This document shows positions 14,907 through 41,439 of a DNA stretch of 64,000 bases, one piece after another. Position 1 is the stretch's first letter. Each line of letters begins with the position of its first letter. The stretch is from Ectocarpus siliculosus. Its lineage: Eukaryota; Sar; Phaeophyceae; Ectocarpales; Ectocarpaceae. The stretch lies in assembly GCA_000310025.1 (NCBI GenBank), contig FN649759.1, positions 154,282-218,281 of the forward strand, read 5' to 3'. Made by a program: the position numbers and the translations under genes. The notes under the pieces were generated by a model, which had not been told where the DNA came from, ran no database searches, and saw only the letters and a list, made by a program, of their open reading frames with translations.

Positions 14907-15108
14907 AAGATATGCGCTGAGCTCGTTAGCACCCGGCCGGATCACATGGGCTTGAGGCTGTTAGAAGCTTAATCACTGGGATTGAGCGTAGAGATCTCCG
15001 GGGACGGACCCCTCGCCATACGCCGCTGTTTGGTAAACAAATGGCGGTTCTTCTGTAAGTGGACCACTGGGATTCGAACCCGTGCGTGGAACCTTGTGTA
15101 AGAAAGCC
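14907..15108 (-). repeat. SINE-like block next to the U2 boundary
   Basis: Shares AAAAGATAT near its left end, CTCCGGGGACGGACCCCTCG and a minus-strand B-box (GGTTCGAATCC, about 15,068-15,080) with the insertion at 12,198-12,883. Its right end abuts the first base of unit U2, so the break that defines U2 lies at this repeat. Confidence 0.6.
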
Positions 15109-17565
15109 CAGAGGCATGGCGCACTGCTGTGCTCCTATGCTCGAACGGAGTCACATATTCCGCCTCTGTCTTTGCGTTCTTCCCGTGAGTGCGCCCTGCG
15201 GCGGAGGAGCTGAGCCTCCCTCGCCGACCACGGGATACGTCCGGCCATTCCCAGGGAGGCAAGAAGGATGGTTGTCGTGGGGACGATGATGTTCCATTCA
15301 CACTCCCACCCCACTTGGCGATCATGGTTACCGTCTCTGTTGCTGGTGCTGGTGCTGCGATGCAGCCTTCAGGACTCATCACCGTCCTACGAGAACAGGG
15401 AGAGGAGGCCAGTTGGCAGCGTTTGCGGTGACGCGGGTAGCTGGTTCTGGACGAAGGGTGAAGAGGAATATGCGAAAGCCTTGCCACTGTGACTGTCTGC
15501 AGCTACTGCCCCGCATTGGTCGCGTCCGAGGTGCTTCCCCTGGGATGACGGCGATGGTTCTTTGTCGTAACGTACGGTCGCCTCCGGTTGAGGATATCGC
15601 GGTCGTCTTGACACGCTGGTGTTGGTGACTCGAAGCGATCAAGCTGTTTGCTCCTTGACGCTCCTGTACATGCGTCGAAACCAATTGACCGTCGCAATCA
15701 ATGCCAGGGCCTCTGCCGTCTCGGCAGCCAAATTGTATTCATTTCGAAGGCGTCCGTGATTACGGAGAGTTTTACAGAGGTACGCCGCTACAGGTTAATA
15801 GCTCCCACCTCGCCACAGTCTATAGAGTTCAGTTCCAGCCCGGTCATCACGACGTCACTCATGATGCTCATGTCGGAGGGCCCTTCGGTGAGATTTCACT
15901 GCACACGCTGCGGTTGTGTGGTCTCAGACCTTTGTCCTGAAACCTTCGGAGAGGGGGCACGGAAATTGATGTTGGACACCAAACACGGGGGCCCTCGATT
16001 CACAAAAAGGTAGCCTCTGAACGTATGCATACACGGCGAAAGTCCATCTCCACCTTACTCGTTGCAAGGGCCAAGACTAGAACAACGTCTCAGGCAAGTG
16101 CAGCTTGGATAGGCTGGTGCCCCAGCTGTGATAGTCAGTCCACGACCGAGAGCTGTTTCGTGAATCAAGTGCCGTTTGTGACACAATCGTCTTGCCGGTT
16201 CACTCTTGATACTGGAGGGAATGAAACACACTTGCACCCCCTGGGCCGCGCTGCTACCTTCATGGCAGAACCACATTGCTGCACTCTTGTAGAAGGGCTC
16301 ACACTGCAGTAGTGTTGTCGGCAATATGTGACTTTGAGCCTGTCATTAGACTTTGTTTACGTTATCACCTGGCTGGTAGGTTTCAGTTTGGTCTACAAAA
16401 GGTTGTGACCATGAAAACATGTGTCGCAGTCTCTCTCTGGAGAACAGGGCCAGGGTCGCACTGGAGAAGGAAGGTTTGTAAAATGTGTGCTGGCGCGTGC
16501 CTTGATTTTGAATGCGAGAAACGTTTCCCTTGTCGACAAAACAGTCGAGCGTGTAGCGAATACACGAGATAGGAATTTTGTCGCTCGTTGCCTGTGGAGC
16601 ACGATACGAGAACCAATCCGAGTTTGTGTGACAGTGTGGGGATTCGAACCCACGCCTCAACCCTCGGAAGAATGCCAGATAGTCTAGCGGATAAACGATA
16701 TTCATTGACATGTGGGCGAACAGCCGTGCGACAGCCAGCAAGCCTTTCATCACCTTCGTTTTCGCTGTGTCTGCCGCACGTGGTTCGAGAGGAAAACCGC
16801 CGAGGGACTCAATTCCACTTCGTCTCGCAGGGGGTGCGCTGGTAGCAATGCCCATTGCTGTTGCTCGATACGGTAGGAGGATATGACCATGGAATCTACA
16901 GGAGCATCTATCTGCCCTACACGCGTACAGGATGGTCTCAGTCTTCGAAGCATAGCGCCGCCGTCTAGACGTTGGACAAAAATGAAGATATACAACACTA
17001 CAACATTCTGCACAAGGATAGGTTCACACCAATTACCATGCCCGCATACACATCCCCCGAAGGTAGCTGATGCCGGCTGGCAACTATCTGCGCATGTTCA
17101 AACAATCAGACCTATTCATGCGAGGTGAGGCACCCAAGCTCTACAAACACCCGGCATCCATTGCGCAGGTAAACAGCCCAGCAATAAGTCACCTGAGACC
17201 AACATACCCAACACAGCTGGAATGGGGGGCTTCAGGCACACAAAGCCAGCAACAGTGGTAGTGAGTACTTGGGAGTAAGGCGTGGAATACACTACACTGA
17301 AATTCTGCGAAAACAATTCACATGTTGCTAGTCTGTTCAACCCTGAAGTCATTTATCACATACCATGGATGGAATACGTGAAGAAGAGAAAACAGCAACA
17401 TATCGGTATCTGTGACAACACTTCCCCGATTATACACACTTGTATCAGAGAAAATGGTAGTACCACAGATCACCGCTGGGCCAGACCACACGACACATAC
17501 GCCTAGGGGAAGCAATTGAGCCTACGATTCCCCCACCAACCTACATTTTCTCCAGCCACGTTGGC
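15109..17565 (-). repeat. Unit U2, 3' flank of the transcription-factor gene
   Basis: Near-identical by eye to 605-3,072 of U1 in the same orientation. It includes a second copy of the tRNA-derived SINE-like segment (about 16,350-16,740, B-box near 16,640). It starts abruptly at 15,109, whereas U1 and U3 continue outward for about 370 bp more before reaching the minisatellite. No independent gene is recognised. Confidence 0.75.
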
Positions 17566-20500
17566 TCACCAGAGACGCTGTCCGGTGTCATCTCCGCCAT
17601 CACACGGTGCATCTGAAATGGCATGGGCAGCATCCAGCCAATCTTCTTCGACAATGCCATCTTCACAGGTATCCTCTGGCTTCCCGTCTCGCTCAGTACT
17701 TTCTAGCAACCCCAACAGAGATGGCTCGGGCGTGGTGACCCCCCTGGTAACACCCACGGAGTAAAGGCCTGCCTCAGATTGACCGAATGCATGATTTGAG
17801 GATATCGGCGAAGTGGGTTGTGCTGCAGGTGCCACGGGCCCGATGTCCCTCTCAACCCCGCTGTCAGTGTGCCACACGGGTGCAGTCCCGATGATCCTTC
17901 CAGGAATGCTGTTGAAGGCCGGCAGTATCTCATGCTGGGTGTATCCGTGACCATGAGGAACACCCTCGTCGATGTCTCTGCCAGTGGCCGTTGTTCCAAA
18001 GTCGGCATCGATGTCGTCGACGGGTGGCTCCAAGAAGGGTCTCATGTGCCCGCAGGGGACGAGTACCTCGATGGATCTGCCAAGCACGTGGCAAGTGCCG
18101 GAAAACGTGCTCACATGGAGGGAGTTGCTGCTGAAAACTGTTCACACAGTAGTCCACGGTGCGCCGTGTGCTTCACGTCACCGTAGGCGTGAGGACGAGA
18201 CCTTCGCCGTCAAAGCCATACTCTACCAACCCCTGGCGAACCCTAGTATTTTTCCCGCTCGGCACCTGCACACCACATCATGTGCATGGGACTTTGATCT
18301 CGCGAACATACATACCTGCAGATTATTTCGTCGCAGAAGGCGCCCACTCCGCGCCACTCCACCAAAGGAGGCACGGGCTGGGAGCCAAGAGGACGAAAAG
18401 AGTTCGAAATCACCCGTAACCTGTCGTACACCGCGCGGTCACTCGAATCGCCGGCCGCTGCGAGACATATCAGCAACACGTGTGTCATGTGGCACCTTTT
18501 GGACAGGTCCGCAAAAGAGGGGCGAGGAGAAAAGAGGGCATCACGAAAGACGCGTCGACTCGATAGCAACCGCCAAAATATCAGAAGAAATGTCGCATTC
18601 TTTGCAAGCAGGATAGCGGCGAGAAATACCTGTAGACTGGTGTACCACATGCATAGTCGGGCAGTGATCATGGCTTCCGCGAATGGTGAGAAGAACGCTC
18701 GCATCAACTAAAACGGTAGATCCATCAAACTCGACAACCAGTGGCATAAGGGACCTATGATGTTAAACGAAAGCGAGGTTGAAACATCTGTGTTTGTTGT
18801 ACTCGGTTGAAACTCCAATCTGCGGTCCAACGGTGTGTCATAATATTGCAGAGGTTGACAAGTCGGAGCCCATCGTTACACCGGGTATCGTTCACTCTTT
18901 GAATGACAGGGCGTGGTTTGAGTGACCTCGGTTCTTGGCTCCCCATCTCGCGCTAGAGGGATTGACGAGGCCCACCTCACTTCCTTTGATATTCAGAAAC
19001 GTGACACTGAGTGAAGGATTTCACATTGTAACGAGCCTTACTGTTCGGGCAACCCTGTAAAAGGAGAGCGGACGTTGCCTACGCCACCTGAAAAACTACT
19101 ACCATCACCGCCTCCTCCGCAAGTCTCAAGGAGCTCAGGAACGACTCACCCGATCATGCAGCGACACAAGCCAGGATATCGCTCAAGCACTTCAATGCAA
19201 CGGCCCATTCTCTCTCGTGTGGCATGCAGATCACCCTTCGCCGCCGTCCCCACGATACAGGGTCTATTTGATGGAGGGGGGTCAGTAGGGGCGATAAAGC
19301 AGTGTGTCAGAAAATCCTGCTGGGCTGGAGAACAATTCTTTTCCAACAAAATATACCAGGTGCCAGCGCCACCATTTTGCAGGTACGGTCAAACCGCCAA
19401 GCGTAGGGATTGCTGAATGTGAGGGTACAAGATGGGGCGGCGTCCCAGGCCGGTGTTGGGTTCTTGAATACACCACTCTGCAGCAGGCAACGCGTTCAAG
19501 AAGCAGTTAAGGTATACGGCCACGACAAAGGAATGGCTGGGGGTGGGATTCACGTGTGCTCTCATCATGTTAGAGGGGTGCCAACATCCACGTCTTCAAC
19601 ACTTCCACCCCAGCTCACCCGTCGATGAAAAGAACGCCGATCCCCCGACGAATGCTTGATCTTCTCACCGAGGAGACCGACCGCACCCCAGTGCGAGTCG
19701 ATTGCGTTGGAGATATATAACAACCGTTGTACGGAAACGGTAGAGCCGGTCGAAGTGGGAAGTAAAAATGAGAGTTCGATCAGAGCCTCGTGATGGTGTT
19801 TGTTGGCGTTGCAGCTACCCGTTGTCGGAGTTGGCGAGAAATAGCTCGGGCCTCGATAAATCCTTGATATGTCAGATCAGCTTCACCTTGGAAAAATATC
19901 TCCAAACGTACCACGGTGCTAACCAACCACGGGTACGCTCTCCTGCTTTGCAACGTGAATGTTCACTCACCGATCCACGGCTTCTTGAAGCGGTCCAAAA
20001 TCGATACCATCGCCATCGTCCAACAACGACTTCAAAGCCTTAGAGAAATCAGCAGCCATCAAGTCTTCCGGGAGAGGTAGTACCCCGCCTGGCCTGCCAT
20101 GAGGCTCAGAGTCGCACAGGCCGTTGCCGCCACTCGCGCTCTGCTCGATCATGGTCGTGTAGATCGTCTCCTCAAACGCTACGAAAGATCGAGAGACGTA
20201 TCGATACAGCTCGGCTTCGGTAGCAGCCTCGTTTAACTGGGAGCGTCGTGACCACAAAAGCGGAAGGGTAGGGTAGGTGCAAAACAATGATGTTGAGTGG
20301 TGTCGAGTCAGTTAGCAGCCATTCTCCTCGCTCGGCTCTGCGTACTCAAGGCCTGTTTCCACGAAGCAAAACGACGCTGCCGGTGGGCGGAGAATCTTTG
20401 TCCCCTGGAATATACGCGAGAGCCCAGCTGATCATACTCGGGCATGAGAATGGGCATCGCCAAGCGACCCCTCGATGCAACCAGCGCGCATACCTGAGGG

Positions 20501-23500
20501 GGAGGAAGGTTTTCTCCTTGGACAGGGAAAGACTCCACCTGCCACTTCCCACAGGACACGTTGGCGATGTCTTTGAACTTGACGATCTCGGTGAAACCCT
20601 GGTCAGCGCATGGCCGCACGGAAGAAGCAGATAAGCAATAAACACAGCTGCCCCAACGGCAGCGCGAGGAGGCAAGAGGACCCCCGCTTGTTCATATCAG
20701 TGACTTGATAGTTGCCAGTGTAGGATGGTCTCCAAGGAACCGGGAAAGTTATTCGGTTCGGATCACACTAAATATCACACATGTGACTGTGGCAGGAAAC
20801 CTCCATCGCACGCACAACTCAAGGCGAACATCCTAGAGGGAGCCACCATCAGCTCTCAACCTGTAACCTCCAGCGCTAAACGAAACTCTCAGCACCAACC
20901 TCACCACTGGAAGGGTATCGATGGACCCTTGCTCGATAGAACTTCTCAAGAATGAGTCCGAAAGAGCCAGGTATTTCTCGAACCGCTCCTGAACACATGT
21001 ACCACCTGGTTATCGAACGAACGCACGTCGGAGGACACAACGATTACACCTCAGCTGGAGCGGATCATTTTTGCAATGTGACAAGCGCGCCATTGGGGAG
21101 ACCCACCGGGGAGACCCACCTGCAAGCTCCTTAGGGGCCTGCCGCGTTGTCACAAAGAACCAAAACAAAGTTCCAAGAGTCAGGGGCGGTGGACACACAA
21201 GTGTAGGGCACAGTCACGGAACGAAGCTCACCTTGTGTCCCATAAAGCCGTGCAGGTTAGCCAGAATTACCCATGCCCTGGCCAGAAGCAAGAAAATGGG
21301 AGAACAAAGATCAAATCAAGTTATCACCGCAAAACTACAAAAACACTGTCGAGCGGAAAGAGCCTGGCCGATAGGTCTCAAGTACAAGCACCAAGTGGGT
21401 CAACATTACAGCATCCACAGAGGAACGCCTGGGTATGTTGAGGGTAGGTTGTTCCAGGTTGACTCACTTTGCGACCTCGGCGTCTCCGGGACCGGAGTTG
21501 CTCTTGGCAAGCGCTTCTTGTGCCAGTTGGGCGTAGCTTGTCACCTGCGGCAGCGAGACACCAAACGAGCAGAGGAAGGTCTGTCACACGGACGAACAAG
21601 CCACGACGGCACCCTACGACAAATAGTGACCTCAACGACATGCGAGACACGGTATGATGTTTTGGCAAACAACAACTCATTCTCACACTTATGACTTGAA
21701 AGATGACACGCCGGTACATACCGATTCGATCGGGCTACCCTTCACGAGCGCCCCGAGAGCAACCGCACACCAGGACGTGCACGCTGACGGGTCCATTGGA
21801 AACTGGTTTCGTGCTGAGGTCTTGCTCAGATCGCCCCCCGGGGCGACTGCTTCGAAGTAGTGCCCTCCCTCGTCACAGTCGTCCCCAAAGACTGACTGCT
21901 GAGAGGAGGCGCGGGGTAACATGATCGTCACCATCGTCTCCCGAATGTGACTGGCCAAAACAGCACAGACGGCGCGAAAGTGCCACGGGTCCGATGGTCG
22001 CGTAGGGTACAGTGCTGAAGGACGGAAGTGCGAAAAGAAACACAAGAAAACCACAACTCTAGACAAGAATGCCAACGCCGCCTGCATTGCGGCAGCTTCA
22101 ATGACATATGAAAAGGCCAAAGCCATGGACTAAATGTCGCGTGGACGCAGACAGCACTCAAGTGCGTACGCGGTTCCAGGCAAGCTGGATGTGATACCTC
22201 GGGGTGGTGAGTGGAAGAAAACCAACGCAGCCGAAGAAGTCGCTGAGGAAGGCGTTCTCCTGCATCCCCACAAGGCCAGTTGCCGGAGAAGCACTCAACC
22301 TACACCTGACACACCATATGGAGCAAGGCATGGGCAAAGGGGGGGTAGTGGAAAACTGTGCAACCAATACGCCACGGGCAATCTCAGTTGGCACGAGAGG
22401 CCATAAGCCAGCTGTTTTGATGTTGGTCGACATCCCTGCCGCTGCGTTGTTACTACACTAGCCGACCATCTTTGGCCATGGGTGATGCCAGCCGTGGTGG
22501 GAACTTCCGTTGTTCGTATCTAGTGGAATTTTGGCGTGTCCCCAGCATGCTTATTCGATCTAGGCTCTTCCACCGTCCCCCGCCCACACGGGAGTGGTCG
22601 GGCGATCTTACGCTTGGCTCGGCGGCGGTTGGGTCTGGGAAACTCTGCATACGTTTTCGCTGATGGATCCAAGAGTGACGAGAGGTTTTCGTTTTCGTCT
22701 CCCAACACATGTCTCTGCCGTGAGTCGTGCCAGCCATTCTTGAAATTTTCAATCGATCCAAGAAGATCCGAGAAACAACCTGTTTCTTTGCCCCAAACTT
22801 GTGTGTGTCTGCTGGGGAAATACAACACCACTGCACGCAGAGAACGAGAAAGCGGAGAATGGGAGGTAGGGAAGGAGAAACAGGGAGATAACCTACATTA
22901 CTCTCTGCCTACGCACAGTTCAATCGAGGGCATGCTCAATATTCCCTTGACTACTACCCCATGTAAAGCAACCGAAAGAAGCTACCTTACTTCACCTCTT
23001 GAACGGCAACATGCCGGACGTCATGAGTGCGCCAGTGGTGGAGTGAAGCAGAACCTCCTTCGCATTCAAGCCATCCCGACCAGGGCCCTGAGGCCGATGC
23101 CGCTGAATGTGTCGTCGATAGTCATACCGATGCCGCCTTTCGCTGTACGTGCACTGATCGCCTGATCGAACACAGCGCCTAGATGATGTTGGTACAAGAG
23201 GGAAATAGTCAGCGAAGCAGCCGAAGCATGCACCGCAACTTCGAGCTAAACGTGTTGGTGTGAGTTTACGTACCGCTACTCGACAAGTTGTGGAGGGGAA
23301 GGCGACATATTTCCCCCCCCATCGTGAGTGTTTCCCCGAGCTGCGGACACAGGAGGCAGTGCAACGTGGTTGGTGTTAAAGAGAATTTACTTAGACTAAT
23401 TGTTGAATGCTGCAAGTACGCAACTCAAATACTAAATCCGCGTTGAAACCATCGAGAACACGCCACCGAGCCGCGACAGTTTCTTACCTGCAACCCAGGA

Positions 23501-25013
23501 GGTAAAAAGCAGGGTTGATCGACCTTTTGGTAAGGGATAATATCCGCCGACCCTAATAACCCTATATTTCGACCCCGACAAGACCGGTTGATGATCGGCT
23601 GGCTTCTGAGGAGGCAGAAAAATAGGGCACGCTTCGTTATACCTGTGTGGTTGTACTCCGCCAAGATGTGTGGCCATGCTCTACAGGCCTTTGCTCTGAA
23701 AATTCGTGGGAGATACCTCATCCTAACCCCGGGAGTTGTCGAGGTAAAGGGGAGCGCAATGCGCAGACTCCACGTGCGAATTTTGAAGCCAGCTAGCCAG
23801 AAGAAACCGAGATGATACACTCAGCGGAGTCCCGCACACCCATAGAAGCACACACCCTCGCCGTCGCTTACTCCCTGCCGCACGTGAAAGTGTACCAGTA
23901 ACAACCAGCAGACTTGGTGCCTGCCCTCTGGATTCACAGCAAGAAATCTTTGTTGACGATGCGCTTTTCTTGCCGTTGGAAACTCTCACGACCGATTGGG
24001 TGTAAAAATACAAATATAGATACGAAGCCTGTATATGGAAGTCACTGCCAAAGCAGCAACAAGATTGAGCGAAGTGGAGGCGTTCGTGCGCTGTTGGTTC
24101 ATTCGCTACACGATACTCAGATACGATGTGTAGGTATGAATCTGACAGCAGTAACAGGGTGCCCGGCGGGGGGCGAGAGAAACAATCGTATAACGCCGCC
24201 TCAAGCATCGAAACATGAGAAACGAGAGTGAGATGGTGAGATGGTGCATCCACGTGAGAGCACGGTTAGAACGGTCATGTTTGAATGTTTGAATTGTGTT
24301 CCGACCACCACACCGCACTGCCCGATGGACTCTATCGCCCGATGGACTCTATCTACAGCAGTAGTGCACCCGTCTCTACCGCCATTGCTCATCAAAGCCA
24401 GCGGCAGTGCTGTGAGGTGCAGATTGCATGGTATGCAGTAGCAGTGTCAGTGTGTGACGCGTGTTGTTTGGTGTGTTCCTTCGTGTATAACGTTCCCCCA
24501 CAGGTGCGGCGGATGCATCAGTCTTGAAGATCCCCTCAAATATGCGCGCGGATACAAGTCTTTTCATGTACGTCTGCATATGAACTGCGGAAGTGCGTGT
24601 GTGGGATTGCTGCCTGGACGCAGCGTGTCTCGCACAGCATCGCTGAAGACTACGACTGCAACTCCGCGGCGAACTACAGTACCCCGCCGTACGAGTCAAA
24701 TAACTTCCCTCTCCAACCGCGGGAGGGTGGGCACGAACCGGTGCTTCGAACGAACAACAATTCGTTGCGTCTCTTGACGCAAGACGTGTACCGCTGTGTA
24801 TAGTCCACTGTACACGTGTAGCCTACGCAGAATTGGTGCGTTCAGCACTTACCCACAAGGCCGTTGACCATCACAACTCTTCTTTTTTCGTCCGCATTCT
24901 GAGCAGCTCCTACGCATCCTGCGCAGGATTGGACGCGAGCAATTCCCTTCTTCGGGACCAACGTCGTTATCCCCATGGTTCAATGATGGTGATGTTGTAG
25001 TTGAGGCATCCAT
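17566..25013 (-). CDS. Fungal-type Zn2Cys6 transcription factor, copy U2 (multi-exon)
   Basis: Probable nuclear transcription regulator. Exon 1 runs from the ATG at 25,013 (MDASTTTSPSLNHGDNDVG) to a GTGAGT donor and encodes SCSECGRKKKSCDGQRPC, the first four cysteines of a Zn2Cys6 cluster. The next open frame (within 24,376-24,699) holds RSCSRSLQRC, a C-x6-C that could give cysteines five and six after splicing. The rest of the exon series matches U3. The acidic C-terminal exon (17,566-18,114) ends DAPCDGGDDTGQRLW at a stop; a GTGAGC donor overlaps that stop, so coding may continue downstream. The copy carries none of the large insertions found in U1 and U3 and is the best candidate for the least disturbed gene. 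It is divergently paired with U3 across 345 bp. A full exon model cannot be fixed by eye. Confidence 0.65.
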
Positions 25014-25358
25014 GGGTATTGATTTTTCCGGTAGCTGCGATCGTTGTTTCTCGAGGGGGACGAAACACTTTGGAGCTGTATATTTCTTATCACGGTACCC
25101 AGCCAGTTAACTCTCTCGGCTAAGCTGAGGCGCAAGCACAGGCAAGAACGAATATGTAAGGAACGCGGGGAGACCAGCCAGCGGCGAATTGGCGGGTTTT
25201 ACTCCTATTGGCTAAAACCAACAGTTCGGACTGGCAAATTTTCTTGACTCTCTGCTTACGCCGAGAGAGTCACCTGGCTTCGGACCGTGATCAGAAACAT
25301 AGAGCTCCAAAGAGCTTCGCCCCCCTCGAGAAACAGCGATCGCAGCTACCGGGGAACC
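25014..25358. promoter_or_regulatory. Centre of the giant inverted repeat; shared bidirectional promoter region
   Basis: The 345 bp between the two divergent start codons (25,013 minus and 25,359 plus). The central part is unique; the edges pair with each other. It holds CCTATTGGCTAAAACCAACA (25,203-25,225) with an inverted CCAAT box, also found upstream of U1. No TATA box is clear. A two-way promoter is inferred from the gene layout. Confidence 0.55.
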
Positions 25359-28300: not shown

Positions 28301-31300
28301 CGGCATCGGACATAACCAATCGACCCGCGGCAGTAGGGCATGATGCTGTCACGATTATGCACATGAGGCAGGTGCCTTGTTTTCTGTTTCCCCCGGCTTA
28401 CTAGGGACTACTTGCCGGTACAATCTTGTCTGTGCCGCGCACAGAGGGGCATATAGCTGAAGGAATCGACGATAATATGCCCACTCACGTAAGCAATCGT
28501 CTCCACGGATGGTATTGACAAGTCCCCACTGATGGTATCGACAAGTCCCATGGCATACAAAGCGGCCGCATACGTAATCGGAAAGTGCATTCAACAGCAT
28601 TCACGGGAACGGATAAAAGCAAAAACACATGCATGCGAGAGAAAGACTCAAAGAAAAAGACTGAAAAACAATGAAGACGAGAAAAAAAAAACGAGACAGC
28701 GAACTACGTGCTGTATGCATAAGGAAAAAGAAGATGAGAAAAAAATAGGGGGGGGAGGTGGATGTGACACGCGAGGTTCGAAGTCGCGAAGAACGTCAGG
28801 TAGCGGTCCATGTGAGTGCATCACGGTCTCGAGGGGCATCACGTCAAATTTATTGCCGCCGTGACACAAACGTTCTATAAGAATACGTCACGTCCATCGA
28901 CGATTAAGCGACCAAAAACGCCCGGACAGCAATTGATGCATGCCAAAAACTCGTCAACCTGCCGTAGGATTGTCTATGCGGAAGTGATCTCAATGAAAAT
29001 AAAAAAAACAAGGACACGCACCAGCACGGGACGCGCCAATAGTGGAAGCACTCGTCCGTGCTGTTGGCGAGTGGAAGTTAACCGATCTCAACGCAACGAA
29101 ACACGAAGTCATACATGTATCAGCACGGGATGCGCCAATGAGTGGAAGCACCCGCGCTGTTGGCGAGTAGAGTTAACCGAATTCAACGCAGCGGTAGAGA
29201 AATACCACAAATCATGCATCAGTACGGGACGCGCCAATGAGTGGAAGCACCCGTGCTGTATATGTGTTGTCAGCCTCAGCACGGGACGCGCCAACGAGTG
29301 GAAGCACTCGTGCTGTTGGCGAGTAGAGTTAACCGATCTCAAAAAGAAAGAACAAAACGCCGTACACGTATTAGCACGGGACGCGCCAATGAGTGGACGC
29401 ACCCGTGCTGTTGGCGAGTAGAGTTAACCGAATTCAACGCATCGAAAACGAAGTCGTACACGTATCAGTACGGGACGCGCCAATGAGTGGAAGCACCCGT
29501 GCTGCATATGTGTTGTCAGTTTCAGCAAGGGACGCGCCAATGAGTGCTGTTGGCGAGTAGAGTTAACCGATCTCAAAAAGAAAGAACAAAAACGCCGTAC
29601 ACGTATCAGTACGGGACGCGCCAATGAGTGGGCGCACCCGTGCTGTTGGGCGAGTAGAATTAACCGATCTCCACGCATCGAAAACGAAGTCATACACGTA
29701 TCAGTACGGGACGCGCCAATGAGTGGAAGCACCCGTGTTCATATGTGTTGTCAGTTTCAGCAAGGGACGCGCCAATGAGTGGAAGCACCCGCGCTGCGTA
29801 CAAGTATCATCAGTGCGGGTCGCGCCAATGAGTGGAAGCACCCGTGCTGCATATGTGTTGTCAGTTTCAGCGAGGGACGCGCCAATGAGTGGAAGCACCC
29901 GCGCTGTTGGCAAGTGGAGTTCACCGTATCCAACGCATCGAAAAAAAAAAAAAAACACGTATCAGCACGGGACGCGCCAATGAGTGGAAGCACCCGTGCC
30001 GATGGCGAACCGGGGTTCACCGAATCCAAGAAAATATATATATAAAAAAAAAAAAAGAGAAACCATCGCTAGTGTTCCAAAGAGAGAAATATTCGGGATT
30101 GGTCGACGTCCGGTGACCGTAGCGTCAGCAGCAATAATCACTCCATTCAATCCACAGGCGTCGAGAATGAACTAACGCGAGCTCGCGATATAACAACGCG
30201 TCGTTCTGGGCCCGACGAAAACCCACGTCAGATAGTTTCGCCCGAAGATAGGATTTGTAGACCATTCTAACTGCAGATCCAGGCGCGCGATCGACTACGC
30301 CCACGATGAAGAGGAAAAGAAGTGTTCCCGCAACGCCGCCCTGACGCTCGCCTGCCGCCTGCCGCCGGTCCGCTGCTTATACGACTCCAACCGCGACCAG
30401 ATGCCGACACGGGCCTCCACGCGGAGCGGCAGGGCAGCGGCTGGGCAAGCAGGGCGAGGTCGGGCGGCGACACCTTCGACACCACGCACGAGAGGTCTAC
30501 CGCGCGATCGGTGGCGAGCTCGACGGCTCGCCCCTCGACGCGCAGCGGATCACGTACTCCCGCGAGGCGTCGAGCGGTATCCTCCTCGCGAGCGCCAGGG
30601 ACAGGCACCCGCGGCGACCCCCCCGCTGATGAGACTGAGCTCGCTTCTCTCCGCGGGCTGGTGGACGGCCTGAGGGAGGAGCTGCAGCGGAAGCGCGATG
30701 AGGCTGCCGGTGATCGCCAGCAGCTTCAAGCAACGATCGACGACCTGATCGCCACCCAAGCAGCAGGACCTGGCCTTCCGGGGGGGGGTGCAACTTGTGG
30801 GCACAACCGCCCCACCATCGGCCTCTCGGGCCCCCGCTACACCCAGCGCCGAGGCGGCTAAGGCTACGGCAAAGGATAGAGCGCGGATGTGGGGGGACCT
30901 CCGCCGGGTAAAAGCGTGGCTCATCCTGGGGCGGCCCCCGGCAGTTTCAAAACTGTCGCAAGATGGAGTGGCAATCCTTGCTTCGCAAAGGCGTCCTGGT
31001 GACAGAGAAAGTGGCGGCATCGCTCGACACGCTCGTGGTTACTGCTTCGCCTTCAACTCGTCGTCCGGTTGCCATGATCGTAACTGCCCACACATCCACG
31101 CCCAGAACCCTTCCCACGCTAGGCGCGGAGCGTCCGAAACTCCGGCAACCGGCGCGCGCGGCGTTGGCCACGGCAACGGGGGAGGGCGCGGAGGAGAGGC
31201 GCGCGCCGCTGGCGAGGGCGGCGCGAGACCCAAGGCCGCTGGCTTCTTCACCCACGGGAAAGACAAATAGGGGTGCGGGCTCTCCCGCGTAGCGGGGGGG

Positions 31301-34300
31301 CCTACCTCGGATGGCAGCGCACCTGCGGCTAAATCGAACGGCAGCACGCCGGTCTACACGAGGTTGGCTCCAGGGCTATCAGCAGGTTCAGGACCTGGGA
31401 CAGGCAGGACGGGACTTTGTTACCGACGTCTTGGCATGCAGCTCGTCGAGCACTCAGTTGCGTCTTCGTCTAGAAGGACTTACACGTCAGGCTTCAACTC
31501 TTGGTGCACGTTTCGCAGGCTGACGGAGAAGCCCAAGTTCCTAGGGCAACGTGCCGGGGACCTTCATGTGTGGGAGTTGATAGACTTCGTAGCCTGGTGT
31601 TTCCAGTCTGAGGGTAATCTAGCGAGTACAATATCCGGAAAACTCACGGCTGTACAACATTTTCATAGGCTGGAAGCTTCTGTCGAGCTAGACTTGTCGT
31701 CTCCGATGTTGAAATGTGCGCTAAGGGGGATTGCGAGGAACCACGTGGCTGTGGGGACGGTACGCCGTGTGCGCCTGCCTGTGTCTTGGCGTATGCTGCT
31801 GGACGGGGAAAGCGCAAGCCAGAACTGGGGGGAAGGGGGCAGAGTGATGTGGCTGTGTCTGTGCTTGTCCTATCTCTTTATCACACGGTCTGATGAGGTG
31901 TTCGCGAATGATGCGGGCAGGGTGCATGAGGCACACTGTCTTACGAGGGCGGACGTAGCATTGTTTGCTGGCGAGACGCAATTAGTCTTTAGTCACTATC
32001 GTAGAGCAGACCGTGTCGAAATGAGGTTTAGAGGGCACAAGGCCGATCAAGAGCAGAAAGGAAACATACGGGTTCGTACGCGAGACGAAGTCACCGGACC
32101 GCAGTCAGGTGTGAGAGCACGCGGTGGCGGGGTGGCTCTTGTGGTGGAGCTGTTATCGTGTCATGCGACGTTCCCTGACTCCGCACCGTTGGCTTCGTAC
32201 CGTAGTGGAAGAGCAGTGAGAGTAGTGAGGTATACTGCTGCCCTCCGTGCACTCAGAGAAGTGGTAGCGAGGTCGGGGCGTAACCCCCAGGAGTACGCGT
32301 TGCACTCGTTGCGAATTGGAGGCGCGACGGCTCTTGCATCGGGCGGAGACATCGCAGAACGAGTGATTCAGAGAGAAGGGAAGTGGAGGTCGGATGCATA
32401 CAAGCCGTACGCGCGAAACAATGTAGAGGATTCGCGGCGAGTGTCACGGAAACTTACAGACGGCAGTAGGATCGTATCGAGACAGCCGGGGGAGGGGACC
32501 GTCTGGGGGAACGGATAGTTGACTTATTCGGTAGTCGTCCAGAAACTGACCTCGATGTGGGTGTTGTAGAATGGTGTGTACCATTTGAGGACTTGGTCAG
32601 TTTTGGGACTCCTGCGTTTGCAGTCGTAGTCCCCCGGCTAGTATTTGTGGGGAGAGAGATGGATTTGTAAGAGTTGACGCCGGCCTTTGCAGCTAACGCG
32701 GCCGGAGAGACGATGAGCGTGTCGTGCGTCTCTCTCCCCAACACGTAGCCTAGAAACCGAAGAAATAATGAAGCAATTCGAAAGAAAACAAAATAAAAGG
32801 AAGGTTTGTTCGTCGAAGCAGATAGAATAAACTGGTGTTTATTTTGTAACAGTCGAATTAGAATTTGGCTTCATTTTCTACCGGAAACCCAGGGTCACGG
32901 TGTTTGGAATTATTAGTCTATAGTTGGGGGTGTCATTCCGTGATCGAGTCCACGCAGGGGCTGTAGCAAAGTCGGGTAACGTGTGACAGCTACAGAGCGC
33001 GTGAAGCAACGGAAGGACAGCAGCAGCCGCCTAACGCAGTAGCGGCGGCAGTTTAGAAAATCCCGCCCTCCCATCCCTTTTCTTTCGAAGGTGGGGGCAT
33101 AAGTTCGGGAATATTCGGTATCTAGTCAGGTGTTGTAGAATGGTGTGTACCATTTGAGGACTTGGTCAGTTTTGGGACTCCTGCGTTTGCAGTCGTAGTC
33201 CCCCGGCTAGTATTTGTGGGGAGAGAGATGGATTTGTAAGAGTTGACGCCGGCCTTTGCAGCTAACGCGGCCGGAGAGACGATGAGCGTTTCGTGCGTCT
33301 CTCTCCCCAACACGTAGCCTAGAAACCGAAGAAATAATGAAGCAATTCGAAAGAAAACAAAATAAAAGGCTGTTTCTCGGATCTTCTTGGATCGATTGAA
33401 AATTTCAAGAATGGCTGCCATGACTCACGGCAGAGATATGTGTTGGGAGACGAAAACGAAAACCTCTCGTCACTCTTGGATCCATCAGCGAAAACGAATG
33501 CAGAGTTTCCCAGACCCAACCGCCGCCGAGCCAAGCGTAAGATCGCCCGACCACTCCCGCGTGTGCGGGGGACGGTGGAAGAGCCTAGATCGAAGAAGTA
33601 TGCCGGGGACACGCCAAAATCCCTACTAGATACGAACAACGGAAGTTCCCACCACGGCTGGCAGCACCCATGGCCAACGATGGCCGGCTGTTATAGTCAC
33701 AACGCAGCGGCAGGGATGTCGACCAACATCAAAACAGCTGGCTTATGGCCTCTCGTGCCAACTGAGATTGCCCGTGGCGTATTGGTTGCACAGTTTTCCA
33801 CTACCCCCCCTTTGCCCATGCCTTGCTCTATTTTATGGTGTGTCAGGTGTAGGTTGAGTGCCTCTCCGGCAACTGGCCTTGTGGGGATGCAGGAGAACGC
33901 GTTCCTCAGCGACTTCTTCGGCTGCGTTGGTTTTCTTCCACTCACCACCCCGAGGTATCACATCCAGCTTGCCTGGAACCGCATACGCATTGGGTCATGC
34001 ATACTGCCGGCGTTCACGCGACATTTAGTCCATGGCTTTGGCCTTTTCATATGTCATTGAAGCTGCCGCAATGCAGGCGGCGTTGGCATTCTTGTCTAGA
34101 GTTGTGGTTTTCTTGTGTTTCTTTTCGCACTTCCGTCCTTCAGCACTGTACCCTACGCGACCATCGGACCCGTGGCACTTTCGCGCCATCTGTGCTGTTT
34201 TGGCCAGTCACATTCGGGAGACGATGGTGACGATCATGTTACCCCGCGCCTCCTCTCAGCAGTCAGTCTTTGGGGACGACTGTGACGAGGGAGGGCACTA

Positions 34301-37300
34301 CTTCGAAGCAGTCGCCCCGGGGGGCGATCTGAGCAAGACCTCAGCACGAAACCAGTTTCCAATGGACCCGTCAGCGTGCACGTTCTGGTGTGCGGTTGCT
34401 CTCGGGGCGCTCGCGAAGGGTAGCCCGATCGAATCGGTATGTACCGGCGTGTCATCTTTCAAGTCATAAGTGTGAGAATGAGTTGTTGTTTGCCAAAACA
34501 TCATACCGTGTCTCGCATGTCGTTGAGGTCACTATTTGTCGTAGGGTGCCGTCGTGGCTTGTTCGTCCGTGTGACAGACCTTCCTCTGCTCGTTTGGTGT
34601 CTCGCTGCCGCAGGTGACAAGCTACGCCCAACTGGCACAAGAAGCGCTTGCCAAGAGCAACTCCGGTCCCGGAGACGCCGAGGTCGCAAAGTGAGTCAAC
34701 CTGGAACAACCTACCCTCAACATACCCAGGCGTTCCTCTGCGGATGCTGTAATGTTGACCCACTTGGTGCTTGTACTTGAGACCTATCGGCCAGGCTCTT
34801 CCGCTCGACAGTGCTTTTGTAGTTTTGCGGTGATAACTTGATTTGATCTTTGTTCTCCCATTTTTCTTGCTTCTGGCCAGGGCATGGGTAATTCTGGCTA
34901 ACCTGCACGGCTTTATGGGACACAAGGTGAGCTTCGTTCCGTGACTGTGTCCTACACTTGTGTGTCCACCGCCCCTGACTCTTGGAACTTTGTTTTGGTT
35001 CTTTGTGACAACGCGGCAGGCCCCTAAGGAGCTTGCAGGCGGGTCTCCCCGGTGGGTCTCCCCAATGGCGCGCTTGTCACATTGCAAAAATGATCCGCTC
35101 CAGCTGAGGTGTAATCGTTGTGTCCTCCGACGTGCGTTCGTTCGATAACCACATGGTACATGTGTTCAGGAGCGGTTCGAGAAATACCTGGCTCTTTCGG
35201 ACTCATTCTTGAGAAGTTCTATCGAGCAAGGGTCCATCGACACCCTTCCAGTGGTGAGGTTGGTGCTGAGAGTTTCGTTTAGCGCTGGAGGTTACAGGTT
35301 GAGCGCTGATGGTGGCTCCCTCTAGGATGTTCGCCTTGAGTTGTGCGTGCGATGGAGGTTTCCTGCCACAGTCACATGTGTGATATTTAGTGTGATCCGA
35401 ACCGAATAACTTTCCCGGTTCCTTGGAGACCATCCTACACTGGCAACTATCAAGTCACTGATATGAACAAGCGGGAGTCCTCTTGCCTCCTCGCGCTGCC
35501 GTTGGGGCAGCTGCGTTCATTGCTTCTCTTCTTCTTCCGTGCGGCCATGCGCTGACCAGGGTTTCGCCGAGATCGTCAAGTTCAAAGACATCGCCAACGT
35601 GTCCTGTGGGAAGTGGCAGGTGGAGTCTTTCCCTGTCCAAGGAGAAAACTTTCCTCCCCCTCAGGTATGCGCGCTGGTTGCATCGAGGGGTCGCTTGGCG
35701 ATGCCCATTCTCATGCCAGAGTATGATCAGCTGGGCTCTCGCGTATATTCCAGGGGACAAAGATTCTCCGCCCACCGGCAGCGTCGTTTAGCTTCGTGGA
35801 AACAGGCCTTGAGTACGTACAGACGAGCGAGGAGAATGGCTGCCAACTGATTCGACACCACTCAACATCATTGTTTTGCACCTACCCTACCCCTCCGCTT
35901 TTGTGGTCACGACGCTCCCAGTTAAACGAGGCTGCCACCGAAGCCGAGCTGTATCGATACGTCTCTCGATCTTGCGTAGCTTTTGAGAGTACGATCTACA
36001 CGACCATGACCAAGCAGAGCACGAGTGGCGGCAACAGCCTGTACGACTCTGAACGTCATGGCAGGCCAGACGGGGTGCACTCTTCCCCGGAAGACTTGAT
36101 GGCTGTTGATATATCTAAGGCTATGCGGGCGTTGTTGGACGATGGCGGTTTTGTTGATTTTGGACCGCTTCAAGAAGCCATGGATCGGTGAGTCGATATT
36201 CCCGTTGCAAAGGCAGGCGAGGGCAACCGTGGTCGTTTGGCACCGTGGTACATAAGGAGATATGTTTCCAAGGTGAAGCTGATCTGATATATCAAGGATT
36301 TATCGAGGCCGGAGCTAAATTTCGCCAACTCCAACAACGGGTAGCTGCAACGTCAACAAGCGCCACCAAGAGGCTCGGATCAAACGTTCATGTCTACTTT
36401 CCACTTCGACCGGCCGTCACGTGTCCGTACAACCGTTGCTTTACGTCTCAATCGCATTCGACTCGCATGTCGACCTGGCGTGCGGTCCTTCGGTGAGAAG
36501 ACCAAGCATTCGTGGGGGTATCGGCGCCCTTAAAATCGACGGGTGAGCTGGGGCAGATGTGTTGAACACGTGGATATTTGCACCCCTCTAACACAATGAG
36601 AGCACACGTGAATCCCACCCCCAGCCGTTCCTTTGTCGTGGCCGTATACCTTTACTACTTCCTGCACTCGTTTTCTAGTGCAGAGTCGTGTGTTCAAGAA
36701 CCCATCACCGGCCTGGGACGTCAACCGGCCGTGTACCCTCTGATTCAACGACCCCTACGCTTGGCAATTTGTTCACACCTGCAAAACGGTGGTGCTGGCG
36801 CCTGGAATTTTCATTCGGAAATATTTGTTCGCCACCGCACAGGATTTTCTCACACACTACTTGATCACCCCCGCGTCCCCTCCTCCATCCAATAGACCCC
36901 ATGCCATGCGGATGGCAGCGAAGGGCGATCTGCATGCCGCACGGGAGAGGATCAGTCGTTGCATTGAAGTGCTCGAGCGATATCCTGGCTTGTGTCGCTC
37001 CGTTATCGGGTGAGTCGTTTATTGGCTCCTTGAGACTTGCGGAGGCAGTGATGGCCTTTTGTGGTTTTGCTGCGTGGCGCCAGCAACGCCCGCTGTCCCT
37101 TTTGCAGCGTTGTCGGACAAGTATGGCTTGTCACAGGGTGAAATCCTTCGCTCAACGCCACATTTCTGAAAATGAAAGGTGTCAGTGGAGCCCATCATTC
37201 GCTCTAGCGCGAGATCGGGATTCCAAGACCGAACTCACTCAAACCACGGCCTGTGATTCACCATCATAGAGTGAACGATACTCGGAGCAACGAGGGGCTC

Positions 37301-38620
37301 CGACTTGTCGACATCTGCCCCAACAGCTTACTCCATGGGACCGCAGATTGGAGTTTCGACCGAGTACACCGCACACAGATTTTCAACCTCGCGTACGGGT
37401 TGGTTTCACAACCCAGGTCACTTTTGCCAATGTTTCTCCAGTTTTTCTTCGATGAATGGACCGTTTCAGTCGATGCGAGGGTTCTTCTTATCACTTGCGG
37501 AAGCCAGGATCACCCCTCGACTGTGCATTTTTATATTTTGCTACATACACTTCTCGCCGCCATCCTACTTGCAAAGATTGCGAAAAATCTTCTGGTATTT
37601 TGGTGGTTGTATTTCGAGCCGACGAGTCTTTCATGATACATACCACTGTTCTTCTCCATCCTCATCTGCGCATGTGTCCACCAAAAGGTGCCACATGACA
37701 CACGTGTTTCTGATTTGTCTCGCAGCGGCCGGCGATGCAAGTGACCGAGCGATGTACGACAGGTTACGGGTGATTTCGAACTCTTTTCGTTCCCCTGGGT
37801 CCCAGCCCGTGCCCCCTTTCGTGGAGTGGCGCGGAGTGGGCGGCTTCTGCAATGAAATATTCTGCAGGTGCGTATGTTCGCGAGATCAGAGTCCCATTCA
37901 GATCAAGTGGTGTGCAGGTAGGCTTGCCAGGGCTGGGTAGAGTAAGTCTTTGGCGGCGTACGATGCTTCCTCGCGCCAACGGTGACGTGAAGCACATGGC
38001 GTACCATGACTGTGTCAACCGTTTTCAGCAGCCACCCCCTTGATATGAACACGTTTCCCGGTACTTGCCACTCTCTGGATTTGAACACGTTTTTCGGCAC
38101 TTCCCACTTGCTTGGCAGAGCCATCGAGGGGCTCGTCCCCAGGGTGCACATGAGACCCTTCTTGGAGCCACCCGTTGACGACATCGATGCCGGCGTTGGA
38201 ACAACGGCCACTGGCAGTGGCATAAACGAAGATGCTCTTCAAAGCCTTGGACACGCCCAGCATGAGATACTGCCGGCCTTCAACAGCATTCCTGCAAAGA
38301 CCATCGGCACCCCCCCCGTGTGGTCTACTGACAGCGGGGCTGAGAGTGACATCGGGCCCCTTCCGGCGCCTACAATGCCACCCACTGCTTGGCCAATATC
38401 CTCAAATCATGCATTCGGTCAATCTGGAGCAGGGTTTCACTCCGTGGGTGTTGCCAGGGGGGTCACCACGCCCGAGCCATCTCTGTTGGGGTTGCCAGAA
38501 AGTAGTGAGCGGGATGGGAAGCTAGAGGATACTGGTGAAGATGGCATTGTCGAAGAAGATTGGCTGGATGCTGCCCATGCGATTTCAGATGCAGCCGAAA
38601 CCGTGAAACTGCGGAGATGA
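25359..38620 (+). CDS. Fungal-type Zn2Cys6 transcription factor, copy U3 (multi-exon)
   Basis: Exon 1, 25,359-25,519, starts MDASTTTSPSLSHGDNH and ends SCSECGRKKKSCDGKRPC at a GTGAGT donor. A C-x6-C (RSCSRSLQRC) follows in the open frame within 25,643-25,984. Exons with good splice sites and matching phases: 34,614-34,690 (YAQLAQEALAKSNSG), 34,881-34,926 (AWVILANLHGFMGHK), 35,170-35,253 (ERFEKYLALSDSFLRSS), 35,560-35,664 (FAEIVKFKDIANVSCG). Also likely: one ending at 34,436 with FWCAVALGALAKGSPIES, one ending at 36,187, one ending at 37,009 (ISRCIEVLERYPGLC), and 37,726-37,867. The last exon is acidic and stops at 38,620. The helical part resembles fungal regulatory domains (PF04082-like, by eye). 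An Ngaro-type element sits in an intron about 65 bp before the exon starting at 33,434. Exons after 35,900 differ more from U1 and U2 but stay open. Confidence 0.65.
27608..27867 (+). repeat. Split direct repeat A1
   Basis: Left terminal repeat of the Ngaro-type element, 260 bp, starting AAGGTTTGTTCGTCGAAGCA. By eye it matches A2 (32,801-33,060) at all but one position. Confidence 0.9.
29020..30005. repeat. Hairpin satellite array inside the Ngaro-type element
   Basis: About 13 units whose core is CAGCACGGGACGCGCCAATG followed by AGTGGAAGCACCCGTGCTG. The outer parts of each core (GCACGGG and CCCGTGC) are complementary, so every unit can fold into a hairpin. Spacing alternates between roughly 55 and 100 bp, because some units carry a linker ending GAGTTAACCGAATTCAACGC. 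Many short frames on both strands come from the repeats and are not genes. The array lies upstream of the Gag-like region. Confidence 0.85.
30300..31270 (+). CDS. Gag-like region of the Ngaro-type element
   Basis: Open reading in the position of the family's first gene. The later part (frame 30,788-31,270) contains a knuckle of the form C-x8-C-x4-C-x3-H (CFAFNSSSGC then HDRNCPHIH), followed by a Gly/Arg-rich tail, as in nucleic-acid-binding Gag-like proteins of DIRS/Ngaro elements. The earlier part is Arg/Pro-rich and lies in another frame, so the region is probably broken about once or has diverged. Treated as a fossil; not interpreted further. Confidence 0.55.
31364..32518 (+). CDS. Tyrosine recombinase of the Ngaro-type element
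   Basis: A 384-residue open frame that looks whole. Residues about 25-130 form the helical core-binding part (SVASSSRRTYTSGFNSW). The catalytic set is visible: Arg about 175 in YLFITRSDEV, H-x-x-R at about 314-317 (HSLRIGGATALASGG), Trp in the GKW context, and the Tyr nucleophile at about 346 or 349 (DAYKPYAR). In this family the enzyme joins circular DNA to the target without target duplication. It lies directly after the Gag-like region and just before repeat B1. The true start could be slightly upstream or downstream of the ATG chosen. Confidence 0.85.
   Translation: MAPGLSAGSGPGTGRTGLCYRRLGMQLVEHSVASSSRRTYTSGFNSWCTFRRLTEKPKFLGQRAGDLHVWELIDFVAWCFQSEGNLASTISGKLTAVQHFHRLEASVELDLSSPMLKCALRGIARNHVAVGTVRRVRLPVSWRMLLDGESASQNWGEGGRVMWLCLCLSYLFITRSDEVFANDAGRVHEAHCLTRADVALFAGETQLVFSHYRRADRVEMRFRGHKADQEQKGNIRVRTRDEVTGPQSGVRARGGGVALVVELLSCHATFPDSAPLASYRSGRAVRVVRYTAALRALREVVARSGRNPQEYALHSLRIGGATALASGGDIAERVIQREGKWRSDAYKPYARNNVEDSRRVSRKLTDGSRIVSRQPGEGTVWGNG
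32561..32800 (+). repeat. Split direct repeat B1
   Basis: 240 bp starting GTGTTGTAGAATGGTGTGTA, directly joined to A2. It matches B2 (33,130-33,369) at all but about one position. Confidence 0.9.
32801..33060 (+). repeat. Split direct repeat A2
   Basis: Internal copy of A1; together with B1 it forms the internal complementary region used by DIRS/Ngaro elements to template their ends. Confidence 0.9.
33130..33369 (+). repeat. Split direct repeat B2
   Basis: Right terminal repeat of the element. Beyond it the U3 sequence resumes (CTGTTTCTCGGATCTTCTTG), matching the empty site of U2. Confidence 0.9.
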
Positions 38621-40803
38621 CGCCGGACAGTGTCTCTGGTGAGCCAACGTGGCTGGCGAAAATATATATTGGTGGGGGAATCGTAGGCTCACTTTCTTCC
38701 CCGGGCGAACGTTTGGTGTGCACTGGCCCATCGGCGGAATGTGGTGTTTCGATCTTCTCTGAAAAACGTGTTCAAATCGGGAAGTGTCGTCACAGACACC
38801 GAAGCGCTATTGTTTTTCTCTTCTCCACGTATTTCGTCCATGTCATGTGGGAATGACTTCAGGGGTGAACAGACGAACAACACGTAATTTTTTATATTGA
38901 AATACAGTGTAATGTATTCCACGCGTTGCATCCAAATACTCACTAGTACTGCTGCTGCATTCGTGTACCTGGCGCCCCCCGTTCCAACCGTGTTTGGTAT
39001 ATTCGCCTCAATTGACGTATGTCAGGGCTGTTTGCCAGCAATGGATTGTCGGGTGTTTGTAGAGCTTGGGTGCCTCCCCTCGCATGCATAGGTCTGATTG
39101 TTTGAACGTTCGCAGGTAGTTGGCAGCTGACATCAGCTACCTTCAGGGAGGGACATGTGTGCGGGTATGGTGATTTTGATTCCATCCTTGTGCAGGATGT
39201 TGAATATTGGTAGTGTGAAGCTCTATGTTCATTGTTGTCCAATGTCAAGACGAATGCACTTTCCTTCGAAGACTGAGACAACCTTGCGCGCGTGTGCGGC
39301 AGATGAATCTACCTGTAGATTCCATGGTCTTCTCCTCCTACCATATCGAGCATCAGCAATGGGCATTGCTCATACAAGACACCATCGCACCCCCTGTCGG
39401 ACGAAGCACAAAAGAGTCCCGGTTTTCATCTCGAACAAGCTGCCGCTGACACAGCGAGTACGGTTGTTTGCCCACATGCCAACGAATATCAAATATCTGC
39501 TAGACTATTTGGCATCCTTCCGAGGTGTGAGGCGTGGGTTCGAATTCTCACGCTGTCACACAAACTCGGATTGGTTCTCGCATCGTGCTCGACAGGCAAG
39601 GAACGACAGTGACTCGTGTATTCGCAACACGTTCGACTTCTTTGTCGACGAGGGAAACGTTTCTCGGCTTCCTGTAATCAAGACACGCGCCACACCAGGC
39701 ATTGTGCACCTAAGCTCATTCCTGAGTATGACCCTTGCCTGGTTCTCCAGAGAGACTGCGACACATGTTTTCATGGTCGCAACCAATTGTAGACCAAACT
39801 GAATCCAAGTGGTAACGTAAACAGAAGTCTGATGACAGGCGCAAAATCACATATTTCCGACAACATTACTCTTCTAAAAGGGTACAGCAAAGTGATTCTG
39901 GCACGGGGGGCGTAGTACGGCCCAAGGTGTTTCGGTTCCTCCAGAATCAAGAGTGAACCTGCAAAACGATTGTATCACAAACGCGCTTGATTCACAAACA
40001 GCGCTCGGTCTTGGATTGACCATCACAGCATCTATCCAAGCTGACCTTGCATGAGACGTTGTACTAGTCTTGTCCCTTTTACCGAGCAAGGCGGAAATGG
40101 ACTTTCGCGTTGTACGCATATGTTCAGAGGAGGCTACCTTGTTGTGAATCGAGGGTGGTGTCAGACATCAATTTCCTTGTCCCCTCTCCGAAGGTTTCAC
40201 TACAAGGGTCTGAAACCACTATAAACACACGCATAGCCGCAGCTTGTGCAGTGAAATCTCACCGAAGAACCCTCCGACATGAGGATCGTGAGTGATGTGC
40301 TGATGAATCGGCTGGAACTCAAATAATGAAGCTTCGGCGAGTTGGGAGTTGAACAATTCCTATAGCGTGCTTCTGTATAACTCTCCGTACTCGCGGATGC
40401 CTTCGAAATGAAGCCCATTTGGGCGCTGAGACGGCAGAGGGGCCAGAAGGGCCCTAGGGTTGTTTTCGACGGTCAATTGGTTTCGGTGCATGTACAGGAG
40501 CGTTAAGGAGCAAATAACTTGAACGCTTGGAGTCACCAGCACCATCTGTGTCAGACGGCCGCGATCATCCTCAACCGGAGGCATCCGTGCCTGACGCCAA
40601 GGAAACATGGCCGTCACCCCAGGGGAAGCACCTCAGACGCGACCTATGCGGGGCAATAACTGCAGACACTCACATTGGCGAGTCTTTCGCATATTCCTCT
40701 TCGCCCTTTGTGCGGAACCAGCTACCCGCGCCAGCGGAAACCCTGCCAACTGGCCTCCTGTCCGTATTCTCGGAGCACGTTGATGAGTCCGGAGGGTTGC
40801 AAC

Positions 40804-40860
<57 letters not shown>

Positions 40861-41280
40861 GCAACAGGGACGGCGCCATGAGCGCCAAGTGGAGTGGGAG
40901 TGTGAACGGAACATCATCGTCCCCCCGACAACCATCCTCCTTGCCTCCCTGGGAATGGCCGGACATATCCCGTGCTGAGCAAGGGAGGCTCAGCTCCTCC
41001 GCCGCAGGGCCCACTCGTGGGAAGAGCGCAAAGACAGCAGCAGAATATTTTGACTCCCTTCGAGCATAGGAGCACAGTTTTACGCCAAGCCTCTAGGGGC
41101 CATCGTGCGGGCAGAGAAGGAGAAGACCACACGACTTTTCCAGCAGCTTACGGAGAGGAGGTGTGCATCCAGGCAGCAGGAGCAACCGGATGAGCGAGTG
41201 GGAATGAAATCGAACGGCGGACCTCCAGCGGTGGTCTGAAGCATGTGAAGAGCGACTGTGGCGCTCCATGTTCGAGGAAA
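38621..41280 (+). repeat. Unit U3, 3' flank of the transcription-factor gene
   Basis: Diverged counterpart of 410-3,072 in U1 and 15,109-17,565 in U2, in inverse orientation. It includes the third copy of the tRNA-derived SINE-like segment (about 39,450-39,800, B-box GGTTCGAATTC near 39,540). Apart from the open frame at 40,527-41,069, no gene is recognised. Confidence 0.65.
40527..41069 (+). CDS. Possible exon or small gene with an Asn-Ser repeat; function unknown
   Basis: A 180-residue open frame in U3. Blocks such as AYSSSPFVRNQLPAPAETLP and NGTSSSPRQPSSLPPWEWPD are kept in U1 and U2 with mostly conservative changes, which hints at coding. The centre is a CAGCAA-type microsatellite (40,806-40,866) read as Asn-Ser. 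In U1 and U2 the frame is interrupted just before this repeat. It could be a late exon of the transcription-factor gene, a separate small gene, or chance. No domain is recognised. Confidence 0.3.
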
Positions 41281-41439
41281 CTTTGGATTGGGTTATGAGC
41301 TAACCGTGGTTAATTGTTTTGTGAACAATCAATGATATTTCTTAGGCAAGGACGAGTACATCCGTAAAGTTGAACCGCAGATGTTCATAGAATTCTGTGA
41401 AGGGGGGAGTGAATTCTCCCCCATGATCTGTGTAACTGG

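Follow-up and report, generated by a model that had tools for sequence, protein, structure and literature searches.

The large inverted repeat in this part of the Ectocarpus siliculosus genome is probably a tandem array of three related units that was altered by one inversion and by gene conversion, a reading to which we give a probability of about 0.7. The window, which is the whole stretch of 64,000 nucleotides that was analysed, has a GC content of about 53%, includes no N and has few recognisable genes. Comparison of the window with itself reveals three related units, of which U1 and U2 are in direct orientation and U3 is inverted. The units, and the minisatellite at two of their ends, are as follows.

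1 to about 13,560, plus strand: U1, first repeat unit, from its distal part to the promoter of the transcription factor (TF) gene (self-comparison).
15,107-25,239, plus strand: U2, second repeat unit and left arm, up to the putative inversion breakpoint (self-comparison, inversion grid test).
25,240-42,360, minus strand: U3, third repeat unit and right arm, with a distal minisatellite from about 41,498 (self-comparison, inversion grid test).
1-230 and 41,498-42,360: 10-bp minisatellite (GAGGTGTCAT / CTCATGACAC), found at the distal end of both U1 and U3 and absent from that of U2.

A preliminary description had taken U2 and U3 to be reverse complements of each other, apart from an inserted element, and this is what the self-comparison gives. 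In the main block, U2 15,107-22,790 aligns with U3 41,097-33,358 at 84.5% identity over 7,892 columns, the match of U3 to U2 ending at 41,097. In a central block of 4.8 kb, segment 22,779-27,607 aligns with itself inverted at 83.3% identity over 4,983 columns. Chance is ruled out for the U2/U3 match by its length and identity. The U3 arm is broken by a 5.76-kb element at 27,607-33,369, for which U2 has the empty site. The arms, which diverge by about 16% overall, are unevenly alike (about 75% to 99.6% in windows of 250 columns), and they do not exceed 99% identity over their full length, the main block being at 84.5%. To judge from these alignments, the arms are old and do not form a fresh palindrome. 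U1, which probably continues past the left edge of the window, has insertions of its own at about 7,860-10,309, and both U1 and U3 reach further distally than U2, into the minisatellite. The palindrome had also been presented as a unit in itself. The inverted repeat is real, but it is part of a three-copy array that includes U1, and it is better read as a tandem array with one inversion.

Each unit has a copy of the TF gene, in which two exons were delimited.

13,290-13,450, minus strand: exon 1 of U1 (PF00172 on spliced exons).
10,849-11,029, minus strand: exon 2 of U1, end uncertain.
24,853-25,013, minus strand: exon 1 of U2 (PF00172 on spliced exons).
22,995-23,178, minus strand: exon 2 of U2 (PF00172 on spliced exons).
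25,359-25,519, plus strand: exon 1 of U3 (PF00172 on spliced exons).
27,198-27,381, plus strand: exon 2 of U3 (PF00172 on spliced exons).

Exon 1 has 161 nt and exon 2 has 181-184 nt, with a GT-AG intron of 1.7-2.3 kb between them, and the spliced exons form an open frame of 114-115 amino acids in all three copies. The identification of these genes as transcription factors holds as far as their DNA-binding domain is concerned. Exons 1 and 2, as spliced by us, match PF00172 (Zn_clus) with 36.8, 37.8 and 38.5 bits in the three copies (E 1e-9 to 4e-9), the cut-off being the gathering score of 21. The Zn(2)-Cys(6) cluster is intact and canonical in each copy. The consensus spacing of Zn_clus, CX2CX6CX5CX2CX6C, is found in U3 (CSECGRKKKSCDGKRPCGRCVRSGDQC) and, with the same spacing, in U1 and U2. 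With an E of 1 or less, 17 PDB sequences match the U3 protein; Pho7 comes first (E 0.0018), and GAL4 is found at E 0.007. The Zn(2)-Cys(6) regulator family is best known from fungi.

The Zn cluster is apparently under purifying selection in all three copies, with a dN/dS for its codons of 0.17 (U1/U2), 0.15 (U1/U3) and 0.30 (U2/U3), values that rest on small synonymous counts of 3-5 per pair; for the whole frame, dN/dS is 0.68-1.03 across the pairs. The open frames alone prove little, because 11% of neutral copies were still open at 15% divergence in a substitution-only simulation. In each of the three copies, exon 2 is followed by a donor-like AG|GTGAAG. Codon-position counts and a scan for synonymous changes revealed no exons past exon 2 and no convincing coding frame in the distal 7 kb. 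The scan is of low power, and the TF exons themselves were not top-ranked in it, except for one exon 2 window (U2/U1) that came third among the rows listed. A tblastn search of the window with the TF, aimed at a fourth copy, yielded no match below E 0.69 apart from the three copies, among the matches listed. Of the 169 open reading frames of at least 110 amino acids in the window, 27 (one in part) were compared with Pfam, and none scored above the cut-off (best E 0.021).

The TF genes adjoin a 24-bp core, and across two of its copies lie flanking segments, named X, that look non-coding.

13,563-13,586, plus strand: core copy 1 (TF / core / X), exact, 112 bp upstream of the U1 start codon.
25,202-25,225, plus strand: core copy 2 (TF / core / TF), exact, 188 bp away from the start codon of U2 and 133 bp away from that of U3.
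46,096-46,119, plus strand: core copy 3 (X / core / X), with 1 mismatch, adjoining the second putative inversion breakpoint.
13,626-14,133, plus strand: X1, flank across core 1, homologous to X3.
45,939-46,041, minus strand: X2, short flank, in the opposite orientation to X1 and X3.
46,161-46,688, plus strand: X3, flank with homology to X1 and, in reverse orientation, to X2.

With up to 3 mismatches allowed, the core has three matches in the window (two exact, one with a single mismatch), and it has none in 100 shuffles. It is presumably a promoter element. Between the two facing start codons there are exactly the 345 bp previously reported (ATGs at 25,013 on the minus strand and 25,359 on the plus strand), and this centre keeps core 2, flanked by 93-nt arms that are 87% complementary with 139 nt between them. 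X1 (13,626-14,133) aligns with X3 (46,179-46,688) at 68% over 547 columns (E 9e-57), and X2 faces X3 in inverted orientation at 78%. The arm of X2 scores 92 against X3, 60 against X1 and 14-17 against TF-side sequence, and the maximum in 2,000 mononucleotide shuffles for each of X3 and X1 is 26; the match is only about 100-140 bp long. The remainder of 42,360-45,939 has no convincing likeness to X1, its best other match having E 0.023. As a candidate gene X was rejected by eye, with no conserved frame and with indels that are not in threes. The X1 region also includes a local near-palindrome, or hairpin, of 76 bp at 14,831-14,906.

The ancestral locus would probably have consisted of three head-to-tail units, each composed of a distal part, a leftward TF gene, the 24-bp core and X. 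The third TF gene (TF3) would then have been turned round by one inversion, about 20.8 kb long. Its left break would lie a little past core 2, at about 25,240 in the sequence upstream of TF3, and its right break at 46,040-46,160, beside core 3. Both head-to-head junctions, TF/core/TF at 25 kb and X/core/X at 46 kb, would have been created by this event. We infer the inversion and its timing from the homologies, the orientations and the three cores, all within this window alone. In a grid test, one inversion reduces the number of bases aligned in inverted orientation between units from 23,704 to 76, with a fine optimum at i = 25,240 and j = 46,040-46,160, and the leftover 76 bases are the local hairpin at 14,831-14,906. 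Of 93 homology pairs the test took 18, and the 75 that it excluded lie in inserts, in minisatellites or beyond 46.7 kb; over all 93 pairs, unmasked, the same inversion lowers the inverted bases from 29,091 to 502. The left end is set by 14 unit pairs, with which the right end could fall at any tested position between 41.7 and 60 kb. By themselves the 4 X pairs, an independent set, put the right end at 46,040-46,160, and of their 600 bases 0 are then still inverted.

When the inversion is undone, the regular order TF-core-X-distal-TF-core-X-distal-TF-core-X is obtained. With that one inversion the copies of the unit all become direct and the two junctions are reciprocal, although the support from X2 is short. 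Some observations weigh against the inversion. Most of X2 would have to have been lost or replaced, because the rest of 42,360-45,939 bears no convincing likeness to X1, and a separate deletion at 15,107 is needed, since U2 does not have the minisatellite end common to U1 and U3. The TF3 upstream stretch expected at 46,041-46,095 is barely recognisable: just its last 10 bases fall within a 47-bp match, at 81%, to the centre.

The identity between the units is a mosaic, given here in U2 coordinates.

15,107-20,150: U1/U2 96-97%; U3 about 82% to both.
17,500-17,800: U3 91% to U1 and U2.
17,800-20,150: U2/U3 82%.
20,480-22,900: U2/U3 97.5%; U1 87-88% to both.
22,900-23,230: U2/U3 97.9%.
23,230-24,200: U1/U2 80.5%, U1/U3 79.6%, U2/U3 84.1%.
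24,200-24,740: U2/U3 93.4%; U1 non-homologous over most of it.
24,740-25,014: U1/U2 85.1%, U1/U3 87.2%, U2/U3 87.0%.

Tracts of 97-99% identity lie in the arms beside sequence at 80-84%, and outside the putative conversion tracts all three copies differ from one another to about the same degree (23,230-24,200). The partner of U2 switches at 20,368-20,439, with a maximum chi-square of 870 compared with a highest value of 24 in 1,000 permutations. Gene conversion, of U1/U2 and of U2/U3, is the process that fits this mosaic best. Old and nearly equidistant copies would later have been converted over several kb, once between the direct pair and once between the inverted pair, with tracts at 15.1-20.4 kb (U1/U2) and 20.4-23.2 kb (U2/U3), before and/or after the inversion. 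The earlier suggestion of conversion between the arms is supported by U2/U3 at 97.5% in 20,480-22,900, as against 84% in 23,230-24,200 and 82% in 17,800-20,150. Unequal crossing-over between two units was considered as the source of U2 and rejected. It predicts a U3-like distal and a U1-like proximal part, and conversion is preferred because this product would be the reverse of the observed mosaic. At 20,150-20,480, where the partners switch, all three units are 96-99% alike.

The inverted pair could instead have arisen by direct inverted duplication, through fold-back or a template switch close to the core, with the X-X junction at 46 kb as a separate small event of this kind. The short spacer of the centre, 139 nt between the 93-nt arms, is what such events give, and the shortness of X2 also fits. 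Two independent events would then have had to stop at the same 24-bp core, where one inversion explains both, and we regard this origin as rather doubtful. Least probable of all is an artefact of assembly, in which one unit was joined, as a chimera or hairpin, to its own reverse complement. Palindromes are hard to assemble, and this one was evaluated from the assembled sequence. However, a chimeric hairpin would give near-identical arms and these differ by about 16%, the insertions of U1 and U3 differ, identity shifts abruptly inside the arms, and there is no N in the window.

The inverted repeat might also be kept by selection as a DNA structure, a cruciform or palindrome controlling both genes, as was proposed for divergent paralogues of Caenorhabditis in the accessible part of PMC1803023, the closest published case found. 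The two cases resemble each other: in both there are divergent, head-to-head paralogues, a short asymmetric spacer in an inverted-repeat intergenic region and proposed gene conversion, and in both there are further direct duplicates, in Caenorhabditis of the pair and in a related species (PMC1803023, same part). The intergenic region described there has 446 bp, with 160-bp arms and a 126-bp spacer. Intergenic arms are at 95.7-99.2% in the divergent example and at 83.4% in a convergent one from C. remanei, whereas here they are at 87%, and the U2/U3 tract of 97-98% is situated distally and around exon 2, away from the centre. The arms of the C. elegans example extend over 2,207 bp at 99.7%, those described here over about 10 kb at 84%, one of them with an insertion (accessible part of PMC1803023). 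The present repeat was seen in one species, and selection for structure is a very unlikely explanation. Unlike the case as described in that part of PMC1803023, the reciprocal X-X junction here points to inversion within a tandem array. In the parts of PMC3723533 and PMC8981503 that were available, sex-chromosome palindromes are likewise large inverted repeats with multi-kb conversion tracts, but their arms exceed 99%, while conversion at this locus would be patchy and would also join the direct pair U1/U2.

It is plausible that both TF copies are co-expressed from the 345-bp gap, which would then drive the two of them. Cruciform formation or instability seems unlikely at such divergence. Neither of these two, nor dosage change, all raised in the preliminary description, finds support. 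The arms beside the centre are 87% complementary over 93 nt, have a 139-nt spacer and belong to a repeat that diverges by about 16% overall. More speculatively, the core may have been an ancestral two-way promoter between TF and X, whose partners were swapped by the inversion, so that two TF copies share one core and X is left without a regulator. If true, promoter partners would have been swapped naturally here, with the effect of coupling the dosage of a duplicated regulator, and the locus would offer a natural test of swapping divergent gene partners. One window appears to show both reciprocal junctions of an inversion as well as conversion on direct and inverted pairs, and much of the history of the 'palindrome' is thus readable without reads or relatives. 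The locus is well resolved but of an ordinary kind, mostly local gene-family history made of tandem regulators, probably one inversion, and conversion.

Two Zn_clus genes of E. siliculosus, Esi0071_0075 and Esi0071_0081, are both classed as Cu_Oxi_up, i.e. induced by copper and oxidative stress, in the available part of PMC4108028. Like the TF copies, they are Zn(2)-Cys(6) genes outside fungi, and their locus numbers are six apart (PMC4108028, same part); the likeness is by description, not by sequence. Literature searches returned no paper joining Zn2Cys6, brown alga, transcription factor and Ectocarpus, and none joining Zn2Cys6, stramenopile and transcription factor.

The insert in the U3 arm has its own organisation.

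27,607-33,369, plus strand: tyrosine-recombinase-type element with A1-B1-A2-B2 split direct repeats (self-comparison, repeats, motifs by eye).

The repeats are arranged in the order A1 ... B1-A2-B2, with A1 and A2 identical at 261 of 262 positions and B1 and B2 at 240 of 241, and because of this near identity the element would have entered the U3 arm recently. There is no clear target-site duplication at the insert, where a repeat of up to three bases is possible. By eye, the 3' open reading frame includes ITRSDEV, HSLR and then Y, which we take to be the tyrosine-recombinase motif, and the frame upstream of it has a zinc-finger-like C/H stretch. The recombinase-like frame has no Pfam or PDB match, and its fold model, with a pLDDT of 31, is unusable. 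Four frames of the insert (31,271-32,515, 30,310-30,858, 28,816-29,418 and 30,749-31,267) gave no Pfam match above the cut-off, to a reverse transcriptase or otherwise. The insert has the same split-repeat layout as Ngaro and PAT elements, as given in the accessible part of PMC4157794, but no reverse transcriptase frame was recognised in it, and its membership rests on structure and on motifs by eye. Within the insert, at 29,014-30,035, there is an array of 95-235 bp repeats.

A plasmid search with one 797-bp piece gave no relatives, and a scan of viral contigs with the TF, the recombinase frame and the core confirmed none. The window has no Rfam match at the gathering score and no tRNA. Other repeats are dispersed in it. 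A repeat of about 1 kb, at 95.5%, is found in opposite orientations at 9,253-10,239, inside U1, and at 44,229-45,419, in the gap to the right of U3. Segment 7,881-8,955 of U1 consists of a sequence of about 540 bp present twice in tandem (86%), parts of which are found again at 50,499 and 60,406, and it is followed by a 68-bp minisatellite at 8,888-9,090. A 51-bp piece is present at 1,920-1,970 in U1, at 16,428-16,478 in U2 and at 62,419-62,469, at 86-88% and inverted.
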